A DNA stretch of 64,000 bases from Burkholderiales bacterium (lineage in GTDB: Bacteria; Pseudomonadota; Gammaproteobacteria; Burkholderiales; Burkholderiaceae_C). Shown here piece by piece: positions 15,287 to 20,318 of the stretch (positions are counted from its first letter, which is position 1; each line of letters opens with the position of its first letter). The translations under genes were made by a program, and so were the position numbers. The stretch lies in the NCBI GenBank assembly GCA_947453625.1, contig CANGHK010000008.1, positions 1-64,000 of the forward strand, in the 5' to 3' direction. Under the pieces are notes generated by a model. The model was not told the origin of the DNA, ran no database searches, and worked only from the letters and a program-made list of their open reading frames with translations.

Positions 15287-17080
15287 TCACAGGTCCTCGG
15301 ACCCCAGCAGCATCTCGCTGATGCCCTTGCCCGCCTGCACCATCGGCCAGACGTTCTCGGTCGGGTCGGTGCGCACGTCGAGGAACACGGTGCGGTCCTT
15401 CAGGCGGAGCATCTCGCGCAGCGCCGGCTCGACCTCGGACGGCTTCTCGATCTTCAGGCCGATGTGGCCGTAGGCTTCGGCAAGCTTGACGAAATCGGGC
15501 AGCGCTTCCATGTAGCTGTGCGAGTAGCGGCCGCCGTAGTCGATCTGCTGCCACTGCCTGACCATGCCCAGGTAGAGGTTGTTCAGCGCGATGATCTTGA
15601 CCGGCGTCCGGTACTGCTGGCAGGTCGACAGTTCCTGGATGTTCATCTGGATCGAGCCGTCGCCGGTGATGCAGAACACCTCGGACTCGGGCTTGGCCAG
15701 CTTGATGCCCATCGCGTAAGGCAGGCCCACGCCCATCGTGCCCAGGCCGCCGGAATTGATCCAGCGCCGCGGCTCTTCGAAGCGGTAGTACTGCGCCGCC
15801 CACATCTGGTGCTGGCCCACATCGCTGGTGATGTAGGTGTCGACGTCACGCGTCAACTCGCACAGCGTCTGCACCACGAACTGCGGCTTGATCAACTCGT
15901 CGCTGGTCTTGAAGGCCAGGCAGTCGCGCTTGCGCCACTCGTTGATCTGGCCCCACCAGGACGACAGCGCCGAGACCTCGGGCCGCGATTGCGACTCCTT
16001 GACGTAGGCGATCATCTCCAGCAACACGTCCTTGGTGTCGCCAACGATGGGGATGTCGACCTTGACCCGCTTGGAGATCGACGACGGGTCGATGTCGACA
16101 TGGATGATCTTGCGCTCGACCGAGGCGAAGTGCTTGGGATTGCCGATCACCCGGTCGTCGAAACGCGCACCGACGGCCAGCAGCACGTCGCAGTGCTGCA
16201 TCGTCATGTTGGCTTCGTAGGTGCCGTGCATGCCCAGCATGCCCAGGAACTTCGGGTCGGACGAGGGCATCGCCCCCAGGCCCATCAGCGTGTTGGTGCA
16301 GGGAAACCCCAGCAGCGCGGCCAGTTCACGCAGCTCGGCCGAGGCGTTGCCCAGGATCACGCCGCCGCCGGTGTAGATGTAGGGCCGCTTGGCCGCCAGC
16401 AGCAACTGCATGGCCTTGCGGATCTGCCCGCCATGGCCCTTCTTGACCGGGTTGTACGAGCGCATCTCGACCTTGTCCGGGTAGACGAAGGCGCAGGTCT
16501 TGAGTGAAACATCCTTGGGGATGTCGACCACCACCGGGCCGGGGCGGCCGGTGCGAGCGATGTGGAAAGCTTTCTTCAGCGTCAGCGCCAGGTCGCGCAC
16601 ATCCTTGACCAGAAAGTTGTGCTTGACGATGGGGCGGGTGATGCCCACGGTGTCGCATTCCTGGAACGCGTCGAGGCCTATCGCCGGCGTCGGCACCTGC
16701 CCGGTGATGATCACCATCGGGATCGAATCCATGTAGGCGGTGGCGATGCCGGTGATCGCATTCGTCACGCCCGGACCGCTGGTCACCAGCGCCACGCCGA
16801 CCTCGCCAGTGGCACGTGCGTAGCCATCCGCGGCATGCACGGCGGCCTGTTCATGGCGCACCAGCACATGCTCGATCGTCTGCTGCTTGTACAGCGCGTC
16901 GTAGATGTAGAGCACAGCCCCGCCGGGGTAGCCCCACATGAACTTGACGTTCTCGGACTGCAGGCAGCGAACCAGGATCTCGGAACCATTGGGCTCCGAA
17001 GCGGGTGATGCGGGGGAGGCGGTTGGGACGTTAGCCTGTGCCGGCACGGCACGCTTGACATCCGCGGGAGACATGTCCAT
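15287..17080 (-). CDS. ilvB: Acetolactate synthase large (catalytic) subunit
   Basis: Thiamine-diphosphate enzyme that joins two pyruvates, or pyruvate and 2-oxobutyrate. 597 residues. The N-terminal ThDP PYR domain has the catalytic Glu in VLVRHEQAAVHAADGYARA, the central FAD/TPP domain follows, and the C-terminal PP domain has the ThDP-metal motif ITGDGSIQMN ending at LNN. A 25-residue Ala/Pro-rich stretch precedes the fold. The start at 17080 has AGAGG six bases upstream. The upstream region contains a possible leader (see 17174-17202). Confidence 0.96.
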   Translation of the reverse strand: MDMSPADVKRAVPAQANVPTASPASPASEPNGSEILVRCLQSENVKFMWGYPGGAVLYIYDALYKQQTIEHVLVRHEQAAVHAADGYARATGEVGVALVTSGPGVTNAITGIATAYMDSIPMVIITGQVPTPAIGLDAFQECDTVGITRPIVKHNFLVKDVRDLALTLKKAFHIARTGRPGPVVVDIPKDVSLKTCAFVYPDKVEMRSYNPVKKGHGGQIRKAMQLLLAAKRPYIYTGGGVILGNASAELRELAALLGFPCTNTLMGLGAMPSSDPKFLGMLGMHGTYEANMTMQHCDVLLAVGARFDDRVIGNPKHFASVERKIIHVDIDPSSISKRVKVDIPIVGDTKDVLLEMIAYVKESQSRPEVSALSSWWGQINEWRKRDCLAFKTSDELIKPQFVVQTLCELTRDVDTYITSDVGQHQMWAAQYYRFEEPRRWINSGGLGTMGVGLPYAMGIKLAKPESEVFCITGDGSIQMNIQELSTCQQYRTPVKIIALNNLYLGMVRQWQQIDYGGRYSHSYMEALPDFVKLAEAYGHIGLKIEKPSEVEPALREMLRLKDRTVFLDVRTDPTENVWPMVQAGKGISEMLLGSEDL

Positions 17081-17173
17081 TCAAAACCTCTGTGAATTTC
17101 TCTGACGAAAATCCATCGGTGCGCCTTCTCGCGCCCTTGTGAGGCGGATGCGGGGCCAGGGAGATCGAAAACG

Positions 17174-17202
17174 CGAAGCCCCCTCGGGTGGGCGGGCTCG
17201 CT
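17174..17202 (-). promoter_or_regulatory. Possible attenuator-like hairpin upstream of ilvB
   Basis: On the minus strand GCGAGCCC and GGGGCTTCGC can pair with a one-base bulge and are followed by GTTTTCG. A short open frame starting ATGCTGCTTCGC at 17234 covers the region. It has only two leading leucines and no run of Ile/Val/Leu codons, so amino-acid attenuation is not clear. The AATAAT at about 17233-17238 could be a -10 box. Confidence 0.35.
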
Positions 17203-17346
17203 TCAGACCGGTGACGCTTTGTGCGAAGCAGCATTATTGCACCAGTTCAGGACCGTCCCGGGCGCCGGAGCGGTGCATGCGCAACGGGATGCCATAATCA
17301 ATAGCTGATTCGGACCGCCGCGCCAAACCGTGCAGCGGCGCAAGTC

Positions 17347-17913
17347 TTGGCGAGCGACAAAGAACTATCGGATTTCCTCAAGAGCGTCGAGAAGCGGGCC
17401 TTCAAGCGCACTGTGTACGCAGTGCGTGACGACGACGCTGCTCTCGACGTCGTGCAGGACTCGATGATCCGCTTGGCCGACAAGTACGCTGACCGGCCTG
17501 CTGCTGAACTGCCGCTGCTGTTCCAGCGCATCCTGTCCAACGCCACGATGGACTGGTTCCGGCGCCAGAAAGTACGCAAAGCGGTGCTGCAGAACATGTC
17601 GGACTTCGACGTGGATGGCGGTGACGGTGAATTCGACCTGCTCGAGAGCCTGGAATCGGCCGAAGGCATGCTGGGCGCCGAAAGCGCTGCCGACACGGTA
17701 TCCCGGTCACAGATCTTGCTTGTGATCGAAGCGCAGGTGGCTGAATTGCCTGCGCGTCAACGGGAAGCCTTCTTGCTGCGTTATTGGGAGGAGCTTGACG
17801 TTGCCGAAACGGCCACGGTCATGGGTTGCTCGGAGGGCAGTGTGAAGACACATTGCTCCCGCGCCGTTCACGCCTTGGCCAAGGCACTTCGAACCAAGGG
17901 AATCGCGCCGTGA
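17347..17913 (+). CDS. ECF-type RNA polymerase sigma factor
   Basis: Directs RNA polymerase to its own promoter set. 188 residues with region 2 near FKRTVYAVRDDDAALDVVQD (about residues 19-38, DNA melting part SNATMDWFRRQK) and region 4 with ELPARQREAFLLRYWEELDV and a helix-turn-helix VAETATVMGCSEGSVKTHCS. The start is TTG at 17347; an in-frame TAG at 17302 limits any extension and no ATG lies between. Its stop overlaps the next start (GTGA), and four more genes follow in an overlapping chain. Such neighbours often include the anti-sigma factor, here most likely the DUF3619 protein. Confidence 0.88.
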   Translation: MASDKELSDFLKSVEKRAFKRTVYAVRDDDAALDVVQDSMIRLADKYADRPAAELPLLFQRILSNATMDWFRRQKVRKAVLQNMSDFDVDGGDGEFDLLESLESAEGMLGAESAADTVSRSQILLVIEAQVAELPARQREAFLLRYWEELDVAETATVMGCSEGSVKTHCSRAVHALAKALRTKGIAP

Positions 17914-18371
17914 ACACAAACAATCCATCGCTTCTGGCGCTGCAGGTGCCTCGCCATACCGATTCAATCGAGGGTCAGGTGGCATTGCGCATCGCCGCGC
18001 ACCTGAACCGGGGTTCCGAGTCCCTGCCGCACGACATCAGCGAGCGCCTGCGCTTCGGTCGAGAGCGCGCGCTGGCGCTGGCCTTGCAGCAGCGTCGGAA
18101 AGCAAGCACCGTGGTGGTGGCTCATGCGGTGGGCCTGTCCGGTCGCGCCGCCGTACTGGGCGGGCCACCTTCAGTCTGGCTGCGACTGGCATCAGCCCTG
18201 CCACTGGTGGTGCTGGTGGCCGGTTTGGTGCTGATCCAGCATCACCATGATTTCGAGCAGATCACCGCGGCAGCCGAGATCGACAGCGCCTTGCTGGCCG
18301 ATGAGTTGCCGCCGGCCGCCTATGGCGACCCGGGTTTCTCGGAGTTCCTGCGCAGCGCCGAAGCGCCCTGA
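17910..18371 (+). CDS. DUF3619 family membrane protein, candidate anti-sigma factor
   Basis: 153 residues from GTG at 17910, overlapping the sigma-factor stop. The N-terminal about 85 residues are soluble and charged (HDISERLRFGRERALALALQQRRK). One transmembrane helix follows (WLRLASALPLVVLVAGLVLI, about residues 89-108), then a short, acidic C-terminal tail on the far side. Size, topology and position right after an ECF sigma gene are those of single-pass anti-sigma factors. No zinc motif of the ZAS type is present, so the sigma-binding mode would be different. Family known only as a domain of unknown function; the role is inference. Confidence 0.8.
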   Translation: MNTNNPSLLALQVPRHTDSIEGQVALRIAAHLNRGSESLPHDISERLRFGRERALALALQQRRKASTVVVAHAVGLSGRAAVLGGPPSVWLRLASALPLVVLVAGLVLIQHHHDFEQITAAAEIDSALLADELPPAAYGDPGFSEFLRSAEAP

Positions 18372-18385
18372 GGGCGGAAACCGCA

Positions 18386-19150
18386 GTGACTTTGCGTTCC
18401 CGGTTCGGATCATTTCTGGCAACTTCCTGGGCAGTGCTCGCCTGCTTGGTCAGTGACGGGGTAATGGCGCAGGTCTCATCGACTGCCGACCGCGCCTACA
18501 GCCCGGCTGCGCGAGCCGCTGCCGGCGGCACGGCTTGGGCTAAATTGACGTCGCAACAACGTCAGATACTGAGCCCGCTGGAACGGGACTGGGCCAGCCT
18601 CGACGCTTCGCGCAAGTCCAAATGGCTGGAGGTGGCGACCCGCTTCCCGACCCTGCCGGTGGCCGACCAGCAACGGGTGCAGCAGCGCATGGCCGAATGG
18701 GCCCGAATGACTCCGGCCGAGCGGGGACGTGCAAGGCTGTCGTTCCAGGAGTCCAAGCAGTTCTCGAACGAGCAGAAGCAGGCCCGCTGGGAGGCCTACC
18801 AGGCGCTGCCAGACGACCAACGTCGGGCCTTGGCCAACCGCAGCCTGCCGCCTGACAACCTGCCGCGTGCGTCCAGCGCCATCACTAGGGCGCCGACCGC
18901 TGTACCGCCTCGATCGAGCGCCACCTCGCGTTCCAGTGCATCGGCTCCTGCAGCCAAGCCGGTCGCACCCACCTTGGTGCAGGCTGAACCGGGCGCCACG
19001 ACGACCCTGATGACCGTCACCGCCGAGCCGCCGGCCCACCACCGGCCGGGTCAGCCCAAGATCGCGGCTCAACCGGGTCAGGTGAACAGCAGCACATTGC
19101 TGCCGCAGAGCGGGCCCCAGGCCGCCGCGTCGTCGACGCAATCGCCATGA
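18386..19150 (+). CDS. DUF3106 family exported protein
   Basis: 254 residues from GTG at 18386 with an N-terminal signal peptide (FLATSWAVLACLVSDGVMAQ). The DUF3106 core, about residues 48-150, is helical and rich in Trp, Arg and Gln, with repeated patterns like LSPLERDWASLDASRKSKW and WARMTPAERGRARLSF. The C-terminal 100 residues are low-complexity Ala/Pro/Thr, likely unstructured. The repeated LTPxER/xxxRxxW pattern recalls periplasmic Spy/CpxP-like sensors in style, but I see no direct homology. Its stop overlaps the RDD gene start (ATGA). Confidence 0.82.
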   Translation: MTLRSRFGSFLATSWAVLACLVSDGVMAQVSSTADRAYSPAARAAAGGTAWAKLTSQQRQILSPLERDWASLDASRKSKWLEVATRFPTLPVADQQRVQQRMAEWARMTPAERGRARLSFQESKQFSNEQKQARWEAYQALPDDQRRALANRSLPPDNLPRASSAITRAPTAVPPRSSATSRSSASAPAAKPVAPTLVQAEPGATTTLMTVTAEPPAHHRPGQPKIAAQPGQVNSSTLLPQSGPQAAASSTQSP

Positions 19151-19710
19151 GCCGCCACGCCCCTGCGGCAGGCGACGACACGATCGCCGAGCCGACCCTG
19201 ACCGCGCCTGGGTTGCTGCGCCGCCTGGCTGCCTTCGTCTACGAGGGCGTGCTGTTGTTCGGCGTGCTGATGCTGGCCGGCTACCTCTACGCCAGCCTGA
19301 CTCAGCAGCGCCATGCCCTGCAGGGCAAGACAGGCCTGCAAGCCTTTCTGTTCGTGGTACTAGGGTTCTATTTCACTTGGTTCTGGTCGCGCGGTGGGCA
19401 GACCCTGGCGATGAAGGCCTGGCACATCCGGCTGGTTGACCGCCACGGCGCGTCGCTGAGCCAAGGGCGGGCCTGCTGGCGCTACCTGCTGGCCTGGCTG
19501 TGGTTCGTACCGGCCTGGGCCACTGCGCATTTCGCCGGCGTGCAGGGCAGCGGGTCGATGCTGGGCATCATGGGCTGCGGTGTGCTGGCCTACGCGGCGC
19601 TGGTTCAGTTGCGGCCCGACCGCCAGTTCTGGCACGACGTGGTCTGCGGTACCCGCCTGGTGGATTGGCGGGGGGCGCAGGCTGATTCCAAGATCCCCAC
19701 CCCACCATGA
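19147..19710 (+). CDS. RDD family integral membrane protein
   Basis: 187 residues. The N-terminus holds the Arg-containing first helix LLRRLAAFVYEGVLLFGVLML, and at least three more hydrophobic segments follow. The RDD-type pattern is present: R near helix 1 (GLLRRLAAF), TLAMKAWHIRLVD before a loop, and the final FWHDVVCGTRLVDW. RDD proteins are small inner-membrane proteins, some of them linked to ion or solute transport. The gene overlaps both neighbours by ATGA (start at 19147, stop at 19710), so it is translationally coupled within the sigma-factor operon. Function in this operon is unknown. Confidence 0.85.
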   Translation: MSRHAPAAGDDTIAEPTLTAPGLLRRLAAFVYEGVLLFGVLMLAGYLYASLTQQRHALQGKTGLQAFLFVVLGFYFTWFWSRGGQTLAMKAWHIRLVDRHGASLSQGRACWRYLLAWLWFVPAWATAHFAGVQGSGSMLGIMGCGVLAYAALVQLRPDRQFWHDVVCGTRLVDWRGAQADSKIPTPP

Positions 19711-20318
19711 TGACCGCCCCAGTCCGCTCTTTGCCGGCAGCGCCGTTTTCGGTCTGCGTCTACTGCGGCTCCCGCACGGGCCTGCGCCCGGCCTACCAGG
19801 TGTTGGCGCAAGCCCTGGGCACGGCCATAGGCCGGCGCGGTTGGCAACTGGTCTACGGCGGCGGGCGAGCCGGTCTGATGGGCGTGGTGGCCGAAGCCGC
19901 ACTGGCCGCTGGGGCCCGGGTCGTGGGCGTGATCCCGGACTCGCTGATGAAACTCGAGGTCGGCCACGCGGGCTTGAGCGAGTTGCATGTGGTGCATACC
20001 ATGCACCAGCGCAAGCAGATGATGGCCGAGCGCTCCGACGCCTTCATCGCGATGCCGGGCGGTATCGGCACCTTCGAGGAGTTGTTCGAGGTCTGGACCT
20101 GGCGCCACCTGGGCTACCACGACCGCCCGCTGGGCCTGCTCGATGCCGAGGGTTACTGGGCGCCGATGGTGGCCTTCCTGAAGCACGCCGTTGCTGAAGG
20201 CTTCATGGGCAGCGACCAACTGGCGATGCTGCAGGTCGCAGATGACGCCGAGCGCCTGCTCGATGCGCTGCTGGCGGCCCGAAGCGACCTCTCGGACGAC
20301 GATTTCGGCCGGATCTGA
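19707..20318 (+). CDS. LOG family protein (TIGR00730, cytokinin riboside monophosphate phosphoribohydrolase type)
   Basis: 203 residues with the LOG signature PGGIGTFEELFEVWTW (about residues 117-132) and the nucleotide-binding YGGGRAGLMGVVAEAAL. Family members hydrolyse nucleoside 5'-monophosphates, including cytokinin ribotides, to free base and ribose phosphate. Bacterial forms often use AMP or other nucleotides. Cytoplasmic. It is the last gene of the five-gene overlapping operon and overlaps the RDD gene by ATGA. Its stop is 41 bases from the PII gene, which runs the other way. Substrate cannot be set from sequence. Confidence 0.88.
   Translation: MMTAPVRSLPAAPFSVCVYCGSRTGLRPAYQVLAQALGTAIGRRGWQLVYGGGRAGLMGVVAEAALAAGARVVGVIPDSLMKLEVGHAGLSELHVVHTMHQRKQMMAERSDAFIAMPGGIGTFEELFEVWTWRHLGYHDRPLGLLDAEGYWAPMVAFLKHAVAEGFMGSDQLAMLQVADDAERLLDALLAARSDLSDDDFGRI

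Follow-up and report, generated by a model that had tools for sequence, protein, structure and literature searches.

The DNA analysed here, hereafter the window, is a 64,000-nucleotide stretch of contig CANGHK010000008.1 from a Burkholderiales bacterium (assembly GCA_947453625.1), and our subject is a run of five genes at 17347-20318 on its + strand. The run encodes an extracytoplasmic function (ECF)-type sigma factor, a DUF3619 protein, a DUF3106 protein, an RDD family membrane protein and a LOG family protein, with three overlaps of 4 bases and a single gap of 14 bases between them (Table 1), which confirms the overlapping layout described in an earlier note on this DNA. The genes for sigma, DUF3619 and DUF3106 form a conserved ECF sigma module, of which RDD and LOG are not core members. 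We propose, with a probability of about 0.78, that the trio constitutes a transmembrane ECF sigma-factor switch in which DUF3619 would act as the inhibitor and DUF3106 as the exported controller.

The sigma factor matched NF006550/PRK09047 at 256.7 bits (cut-off 173) and the sigma70-ECF model TIGR02937 at 62.2 bits (cut-off 42.9), placing it among the ECF sigma factors; among Pfam models, region 4 alone was reported (PF08281, Sigma70_r4_2, 1.1e-16). Most aligned relatives from the order also begin at the position of its start codon, with TTG or ATG and then GC.

Table 1. Features of the sigma module and its surroundings; positions refer to the window, except in the last row, where they refer to locus L141. 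Confidence of structural models is given as the predicted local distance difference test score (pLDDT).
Feature	Position	Strand	Basis or remark
Acetolactate synthase large-subunit gene, divergent from sigma	15287-17080	-	
Intergenic region between acetolactate synthase and sigma genes	17081-17346		
Extended -10 promoter-like element, TGCCATAAT	17290-17298	+	First base 57 bases before sigma start codon
ECF-type sigma factor gene	17347-17913	+	TTG start, 188 aa; NF006550, Sigma70_r4_2, 40-sequence alignment
DUF3619 gene	17910-18371	+	GTG start, 4-base overlap with sigma; PF12279 3.9e-37
DUF3619 cytoplasmic head, helices 20-36 and 41-72, presumed sigma-binding	17967-18125	+	Model, covariation
DUF3619 transmembrane segment, residues 91-109	18180-18236	+	Hydropathy 2.42
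DUF3619 exported tail, residues 125-148, DSALLADELPPAAYGDPGFSEFLR, presumed DUF3106 docking site	18282-18353	+	Entropy, covariation
DUF3106 gene	18386-19150	+	GTG start, 14 bases past DUF3619 stop; PF11304 1.2e-28
DUF3106 helical domain, residues 51-153 (predicted)	18536-18844	+	Block pLDDT 92-97 for residues 51-150
RDD family membrane protein gene	19147-19710	+	4-base overlap with DUF3106; PF06271 6.8e-18
LOG / TIGR00730 protein gene	19707-20318	+	4-base overlap with RDD; PF03641 1.2e-45
Fusion-like gene (probable)	L141:680-1423	+	Degenerate sigma stretch plus DUF3619 transmembrane segment and tail

The order of the three genes recurs too often to be chance. Across samples of 300 genomes from the order and 229 from the class, PF12279 (DUF3619) was present in 217 of the former and 20 of the latter, the window's genome and G224 counted; the 18 distant class matches were weak and lay mostly over the N-terminal part of the model. 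From the 235 genomes with a DUF3619 match, 59 DUF3619-anchored loci were retrieved, and 58 of these have sigma upstream and DUF3106 downstream. The single exception, L066, is a doubtful DUF3619 match within a 660-residue frame, and the module is present elsewhere in that genome (L126, L182). The earlier note had held that DUF3619 occurring widely without a sigma neighbour would refute its proposal, and this pattern was not seen among the 59 loci. A second set of named loci, the best 80 of 542 confirmed sigma-anchored loci, includes Ideonella, Rhizobacter, Rubrivivax, Roseateles, Polaromonas, Variovorax, Ramlibacter and Paraburkholderia. DUF3619 matched in all 80, with nine rows giving its position as a minor domain of a longer frame, where adjacency is not directly readable, and DUF3106 matched in 79, the remaining locus (L256) stopping at a contig edge. 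There were 118 unique loci: L100, which has no middle frame by the rule applied, is absent from the set of 117, and L010, which has a broken sigma frame, is excluded from the reference 116, of which the alignments drew on 83, 69 and 40.

Co-occurrence extends this linkage to the class. With sigma called by NF006550 at E ≤ 1e-20 and DUF3106 at E ≤ 0.001, 63 of the 229 class genomes had sigma, 65 had DUF3106, 58 had both, five had sigma alone, seven had DUF3106 alone and 159 had neither (Fisher p 3e-40, uncorrected for kinship). The sigma-alone genomes include G221, which has a DUF3619-like gene, and G008, which runs off its contig; among the DUF3106-alone genomes, the match is strong in G091, close to where a contig starts in G070 and weak in the remaining five. 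Genome numbering was used to infer the 83 order genomes that lack a Pfam DUF3619 match (20 are explicitly listed); among the 80 of them tested, DUF3106 occurred in eight (three weak) and sigma in three, and our own profile detects a DUF3619-like gene in each of these three (L139, 1e-11; L140, 2e-11; L335, 3.5e-8). None of 14 named control genomes yielded this particular sigma at E ≤ 1e-20. Gene order is still kept in distant class families, where identity to the window sigma is 30-44%, and some genomes carry two modules of different types (e.g. G080, G009, G075). Since many causes can hold overlapping genes together, sigma and DUF3619 could be translationally coupled but functionally unrelated, with only their order conserved. 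That order and co-occurrence reach families so distant, and that zinc-motif counterparts and a fusion-like gene exist (see below), makes such an explanation highly improbable.

DUF3619 is very probably an anti-sigma factor. Proteins of this kind are encoded beside their sigma, as DUF3619 was in 58/59 loci (with matches in 80/80), and combine a soluble cytoplasmic head with a membrane anchor, an architecture that the structural model and charge asymmetry predict for DUF3619. The AlphaFold model, made with 83 aligned relatives, has helices at residues 20-36 and 41-72, a long hydrophobic helix at 97-130 and a tail helix at 141-150 (mean pLDDT 77.7, predicted template modelling score 0.32); within the head, block pLDDT is 86-92 for residues 21-60 and 71 for residues 61-70. 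In 116 of 117 relatives, positive charge is greater on the N side of the transmembrane segment than on the C side, an asymmetry that should put the head in the cytoplasm. Of five segments compared, the tail is the best conserved, with a mean column entropy of 2.39 bits versus 2.61 for the head, 2.70 for the transmembrane segment, 2.96 for the linker and 3.42 for the stretch right after the membrane. Two cytoplasmic helices wrapping the sigma factor define the class II arrangement of CnrY, and two head helices are predicted in DUF3619 from its single-protein model. In CnrY, helix one lies on sigma4 and helix two on sigma2 of CnrH, according to parts of PMC7406223 and PMC4598750. A DUF3619 hidden Markov model (HMM) search up to E 10 returned no CnrY chain.

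The strongest evidence for DUF3619 as an anti-sigma factor is a set of four sister loci (L169, L172, L174 and L176), where HxxxCxxC, given as the zinc anti-sigma motif in part of PMC4598750, is found in the protein encoded between sigma and DUF3106. In uniting this motif with a transmembrane segment and a tail, these proteins are like the zinc anti-sigma factors (ZAS, zf-HC2; ChrR/RsrA type); their tails are of the F-Y/x-x-W type (e.g. DLDFYLWLA), and L174 exceeds the Pfam zf-HC2 cut-off (22.8 versus 22.2). The window DUF3619, unlike the class I zinc proteins, lacks HxxxCxxC, and its alignment skips the corresponding part of the head. In the sigma tree, the four zinc-motif loci share one nine-member branch (99/94) with five short-head loci that lack the motif, and a same-position protein with either head on one sigma lineage is the pattern to be expected if anti-sigma heads were exchangeable. 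Linkage and covariation say nothing about the sign of the effect, which leaves room for DUF3619 as an activator or membrane tether of sigma instead of its inhibitor. We consider this very unlikely, given the zinc anti-sigma motif at the same position in four sister loci and a two-helix layout matching that of CnrY, a known inhibitor.

A natural fusion of a sigma remnant with DUF3619 is probable in family f217 (G360, G491 and G461; L141-L143), where one gene, preceded by an apparent reverse-strand ilvB, replaces sigma and DUF3619 and is followed by DUF3106 and RDD. These genomes have no match to sigma itself. Profile comparison related the C-terminal part of the predicted fusion to the transmembrane segment and tail of DUF3619 (E 6.8e-6, probability 84.6) and aligned its N-terminal part over 120 columns of the sigma profile (E 2.9e-4, probability 40.6); one copy reached Sigma70_r4_2 at 1.7e-5 but fell slightly short of the cut-off (24.8 versus 25.7). 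The sigma part appears degenerate and is probably no longer a working sigma factor.

Covariation, though modest, offers a view of which parts of these proteins may touch. For 245 unique sigma-DUF3619 pairs, partners were shuffled within sigma clades (distance cuts 0.3, 0.4 and 0.5) and the top 20 column pairs compared. At 0.3, sigma coupled beyond the shuffles with the DUF3619 head alone (p 0.007), with values of 0.60 for the transmembrane segment and 0.19 for the tail; at 0.4 and 0.5, p was 0.003 each for head and tail and 0.71 and 0.12 for the transmembrane segment. In 242 sigma-DUF3619-DUF3106 triples at cuts 0.4 and 0.5, DUF3106 coupled with the tail (p 0.0066 at both), the corresponding values being 0.11 and 0.04 for the head and 0.15 and 0.26 for the transmembrane segment. 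Sigma in the same triples gave 0.04 and 0.0066 for the head, 0.06 and 0.0066 for the tail, and 0.09 and 0.22 for the transmembrane segment. The overall pattern leans towards contact of the head with sigma and of the tail with DUF3106. Two further runs were set aside: a first coupling run, discarded with its top pairs drawn from the DNA stretch common to the overlapping sigma and DUF3619 genes, and a mean-field run on trimmed columns, whose top pairs were noise-like and often fell in gappy columns.

DUF3106 consists of a signal-peptide-like N-terminus (recognised by eye), a helical domain predicted with high confidence and a Pro/Ala/Ser-rich C-terminal stretch modelled with low confidence. It probably controls the release of sigma, and by analogy would stand at the same place in the circuit as CnrX, CpxP and ZraP. 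No PDB chain resembles the DUF3106 model at E ≤ 0.001 (best Foldseek E 2.6), and a profile search up to E 10 gave 11 HMM matches, none of them a CpxP, CnrX or ZraP chain or another periplasmic sensor; because neither fold nor profile searches gave a match, we rejected DUF3106 as a recognisable CnrX/CpxP relative and do not class it with CnrX, CpxP or ZraP. A single relative has a match to PF13801 (Metal_resist) at 0.012, which does not reach the cut-off. In contrast to the CnrX type, the nearly invariant columns of DUF3106 contain no His, Cys or Met.

In the switch that we propose, housekeeping RNA polymerase would make sigma and its inhibitor together from the overlapping genes, and the two-helix cytoplasmic head of DUF3619 would clamp sigma in the fashion of CnrY on CnrH. 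The transmembrane helix would span the inner membrane, with DUF3106 holding the short conserved tail on the exported side. A change felt by DUF3106 would then alter or free the tail, upon which the head would release sigma through a conformational change or proteolysis. RDD would be a lineage-specific inner-membrane accessory and LOG a neighbour rather than an output. What the computation itself shows is the gene order, the co-occurrence, the zinc-motif counterparts and the recurrent -10-like element; the topology, the structures of head and domain and the fusion are predictions, and we infer the binding, the direction of control, the release step, the signal and the regulon. The earlier note had interpreted the first three genes similarly, as an ECF-type sigma, an anti-sigma factor (DUF3619) and an exported partner (DUF3106); this part reads well and is supported by inference, while the interpretation as a whole stands only in part, its LOG component having found no support.

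Several known systems share features with this arrangement. RpoE-RseA-RseB also unites a sigma factor, a single-pass anti-sigma factor and a periplasmic partner in one operon, and SbrI-SbrR of Pseudomonas aeruginosa, likened here by description only, pairs an ECF sigma with a membrane anti-sigma factor. The class I domain of RseA has four helices (part of PMC7406223), whereas the DUF3619 head is modelled with two. CnrYXH of Cupriavidus metallidurans, as portrayed in parts of PMC7406223 and PMC4598750, appears alike on the basis of our models in its ECF sigma, its short single-pass anti-sigma factor with two head helices and its exported helical partner. Two differences stand out: CnrX is the periplasmic metal sensor of that system, whereas DUF3106 has no detectable sequence or fold kinship to a solved sensor, and sigma comes first in the window module, whereas the cnr determinant is written cnrYXHCBAT (part of PMC9045368). 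By analogy, the module probably works like CnrYXH with new parts.

A number of observations weigh against the proposed switch. The covariation p values are uncorrected for multiple tests, depend on the cut and have ancestry only partly removed; at the looser cuts sigma couples with the tail as well (p 0.003 in pairs, 0.0066 in triples), and at the tighter cut in triples the sigma-head value of 0.04 lies near those for sigma-tail (0.06) and sigma-transmembrane (0.09). No solved structure resembles the DUF3619 model (Foldseek, E ≤ 0.001), so the comparison with CnrY is one of helix layout alone. Three of the four zinc-motif proteins miss the zf-HC2 cut-off (L169 and L172 with matches beneath it, L176 with none), and the sigma tree has unsettled bootstrap values and places L169 on a long branch. 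The plain sigma profile scored the fusions at 5.0, 4.2 and -1.5 bits, against 2.9 for the best of 900 shuffled controls, and the profile probability of only 40.6 for its sigma half slightly lowers our overall confidence, from 0.80 to 0.78. Sigma stands without a recognised partner in three of the 63 class genomes with it (G097, G110 and G141), G097 and G141 scoring beneath the sigma model's cut-off. Of 79 DUF3106-anchored stretches, several of which duplicate a locus, sigma matched upstream in 63; the 16 without such a match comprise three fusion loci, two loci near a contig end (L129, L162), ten weak DUF3106 matches and L157 (G091), where the 2.6 kb before a strong DUF3106 hold no sigma or anti-sigma match. 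Finally, DUF3106 is not indispensable, since both G221 (L334) and G232 (L335) have DUF3619 but no recognised DUF3106.

These last exceptions bear on an alternative in which DUF3619 is an anti-sigma factor but DUF3106, together with RDD, is a co-transcribed target or effector (e.g. an envelope chaperone and a transporter) and not a sensor. Such roles would suit G221 and G232, where no DUF3106 is recognised beside the retained sigma and DUF3619 (G232 retaining RDD as well), the DUF3106 of L157 without a sigma match, and the absence of a fold match between DUF3106 and known sensors. Yet DUF3106 accompanies sigma in 58 of 63 class genomes and covaries more with the tail of DUF3619 than with its head, and the tail's standing as the best-conserved segment is hard to explain without a periplasmic partner. 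This alternative has a real but minor share of the probability, and we favor DUF3106 as the controller of the switch.

Distant class loci have a further component, a small exported-looking protein of 65-106 aa between the anti-sigma factor and DUF3106, with a motif like LELLEFLGSFETxDGxWxDP. It was found by pattern in 27 of the 35 distant loci with room for it (including L005, L123 and L125), and three such proteins had no Pfam match up to E 1. This small exported-looking protein precedes DUF3106 at L157 too. The motif resembles the anti-sigma tail: a tail matrix gave the small proteins a mean z of 1.1 (8/27 at p ≤ 0.05), versus -0.34 (0/27) for DUF3106 of the same loci, in a test biased toward the small proteins, which had been chosen beforehand by a LEF-like pattern. 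The result is suggestive only of a tail mimic. On a more speculative and, in our estimation, doubtful extension of the proposed switch, the head would be exchangeable (zinc domain, two-helix CnrY-like clamp or fused sigma remnant) while the tail and DUF3106 form a constant sensory unit; in distant class families, the small exported protein would mimic the tail and compete for DUF3106, creating a periplasmic displacement switch. As for the tails of the two loci without a recognised DUF3106, that of L335 seems to have lost the FxxWL-type motif and that of L334 keeps part of it.

The remaining two genes of the run look like later, local additions. RDD, put forward in the earlier note as a membrane partner, which it may be, is present in 35 of 41 order loci (more than 1 kb past DUF3106 in L084 and L087) and in 76 of 80 named loci, but in 0/17 distant class loci; we rejected it as a core member. 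The distribution looks like that of an order-level, lineage-specific addition to the module. The window LOG protein scores 213.2 bits with TIGR00730 (cut-off 96.35) and 171.3 with NF058542, the LOG cytokinin phosphoribohydrolase equivalog, whose cut-off is 300. Within the retrieved stretches, LOG lies near RDD in 8/41 order loci, every one from the window's own family, and in 0/17 distant loci; it matched in 55/80 named loci. In 14 of these 55, the RDD and LOG matches are separated by less than 100 bases, and in the other 41 by 162-609 bases; in the six of these spaced loci that were inspected (L188, L189, L207, L213, L219 and L253), a dgkA-like (diacylglycerol-kinase) frame lies between them, confirmed by Pfam as DAGK_prokar in L207 and L253. 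Given this restriction to one family among the order loci and the spacing with its intervening frame, LOG seems to be part of the neighboring stretch and not of the sigma module, and the suggestion that it serves as the output found no support. The 4-base overlap of RDD and LOG in the window and their closeness in 14 of 55 named loci would suit a single five-gene signaling unit with LOG as its output enzyme; with LOG confined to 8/41 order loci and none of the 17 distant ones, and with 41 of the 55 pairs spaced apart, this is very improbable.

Upstream of sigma, an extended -10-like element is common to many loci. We compared 105 upstream regions, from the 26 order loci whose start codon was clear (those with unclear starts being excluded) and 79 of the 80 named loci; these regions are related to one another and not independent. 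TGN[TC]ANNAT occurs within 120 bases upstream of sigma in 51 of the 105, versus 3.4 expected from 2-base-block shuffles. The element begins 41-115 bases before sigma and is mostly TGNCATAAT in the window's kin and TG[CT]TAG[CG]AT in Burkholderia kin. The GGAAC-type (ECF-like -35) promoter, GGAAC being the ECF motif searched, was not enriched (10/105 regions versus 11 expected). Autoregulation from a promoter of this type is frequent among ECF sigma factors but does not strictly define them. An extended -10 element without GGAAC enrichment makes the operon look like a product of the housekeeping polymerase, which suits a switch controlled at the protein level, though control by another ECF motif is possible. 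The divergent acetolactate synthase gene is kept in 32/41 order loci and 79/80 named loci, the remaining one starting at a contig edge, so the common upstream region may carry ilv control too.

Two DUF families (DUF3619 and DUF3106) and a PRK-level sigma group thereby gain a joint candidate function across much of the order and beyond. The findings also suggest that zinc and non-zinc heads can be swapped on one sigma lineage with the exported tail kept, which would set the sensing end apart from the inhibiting end. In the open-access literature searched, no paper names DUF3619, DUF3106 or PRK09047, and none was found that brings together a sigma factor, the RDD family, acetolactate synthase and Burkholderia; the 2021 ECF reclassification may already include this sigma group. 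One candidate counterpart is rpoR (Rmet_0910), which may be the orthologue of the window sigma, since ilvB lies beside it. In C. metallidurans, rpoR (Rmet_0910) has NPKM values of 378 in sense and 664 in antisense orientation, as given in part of PMC11647585.

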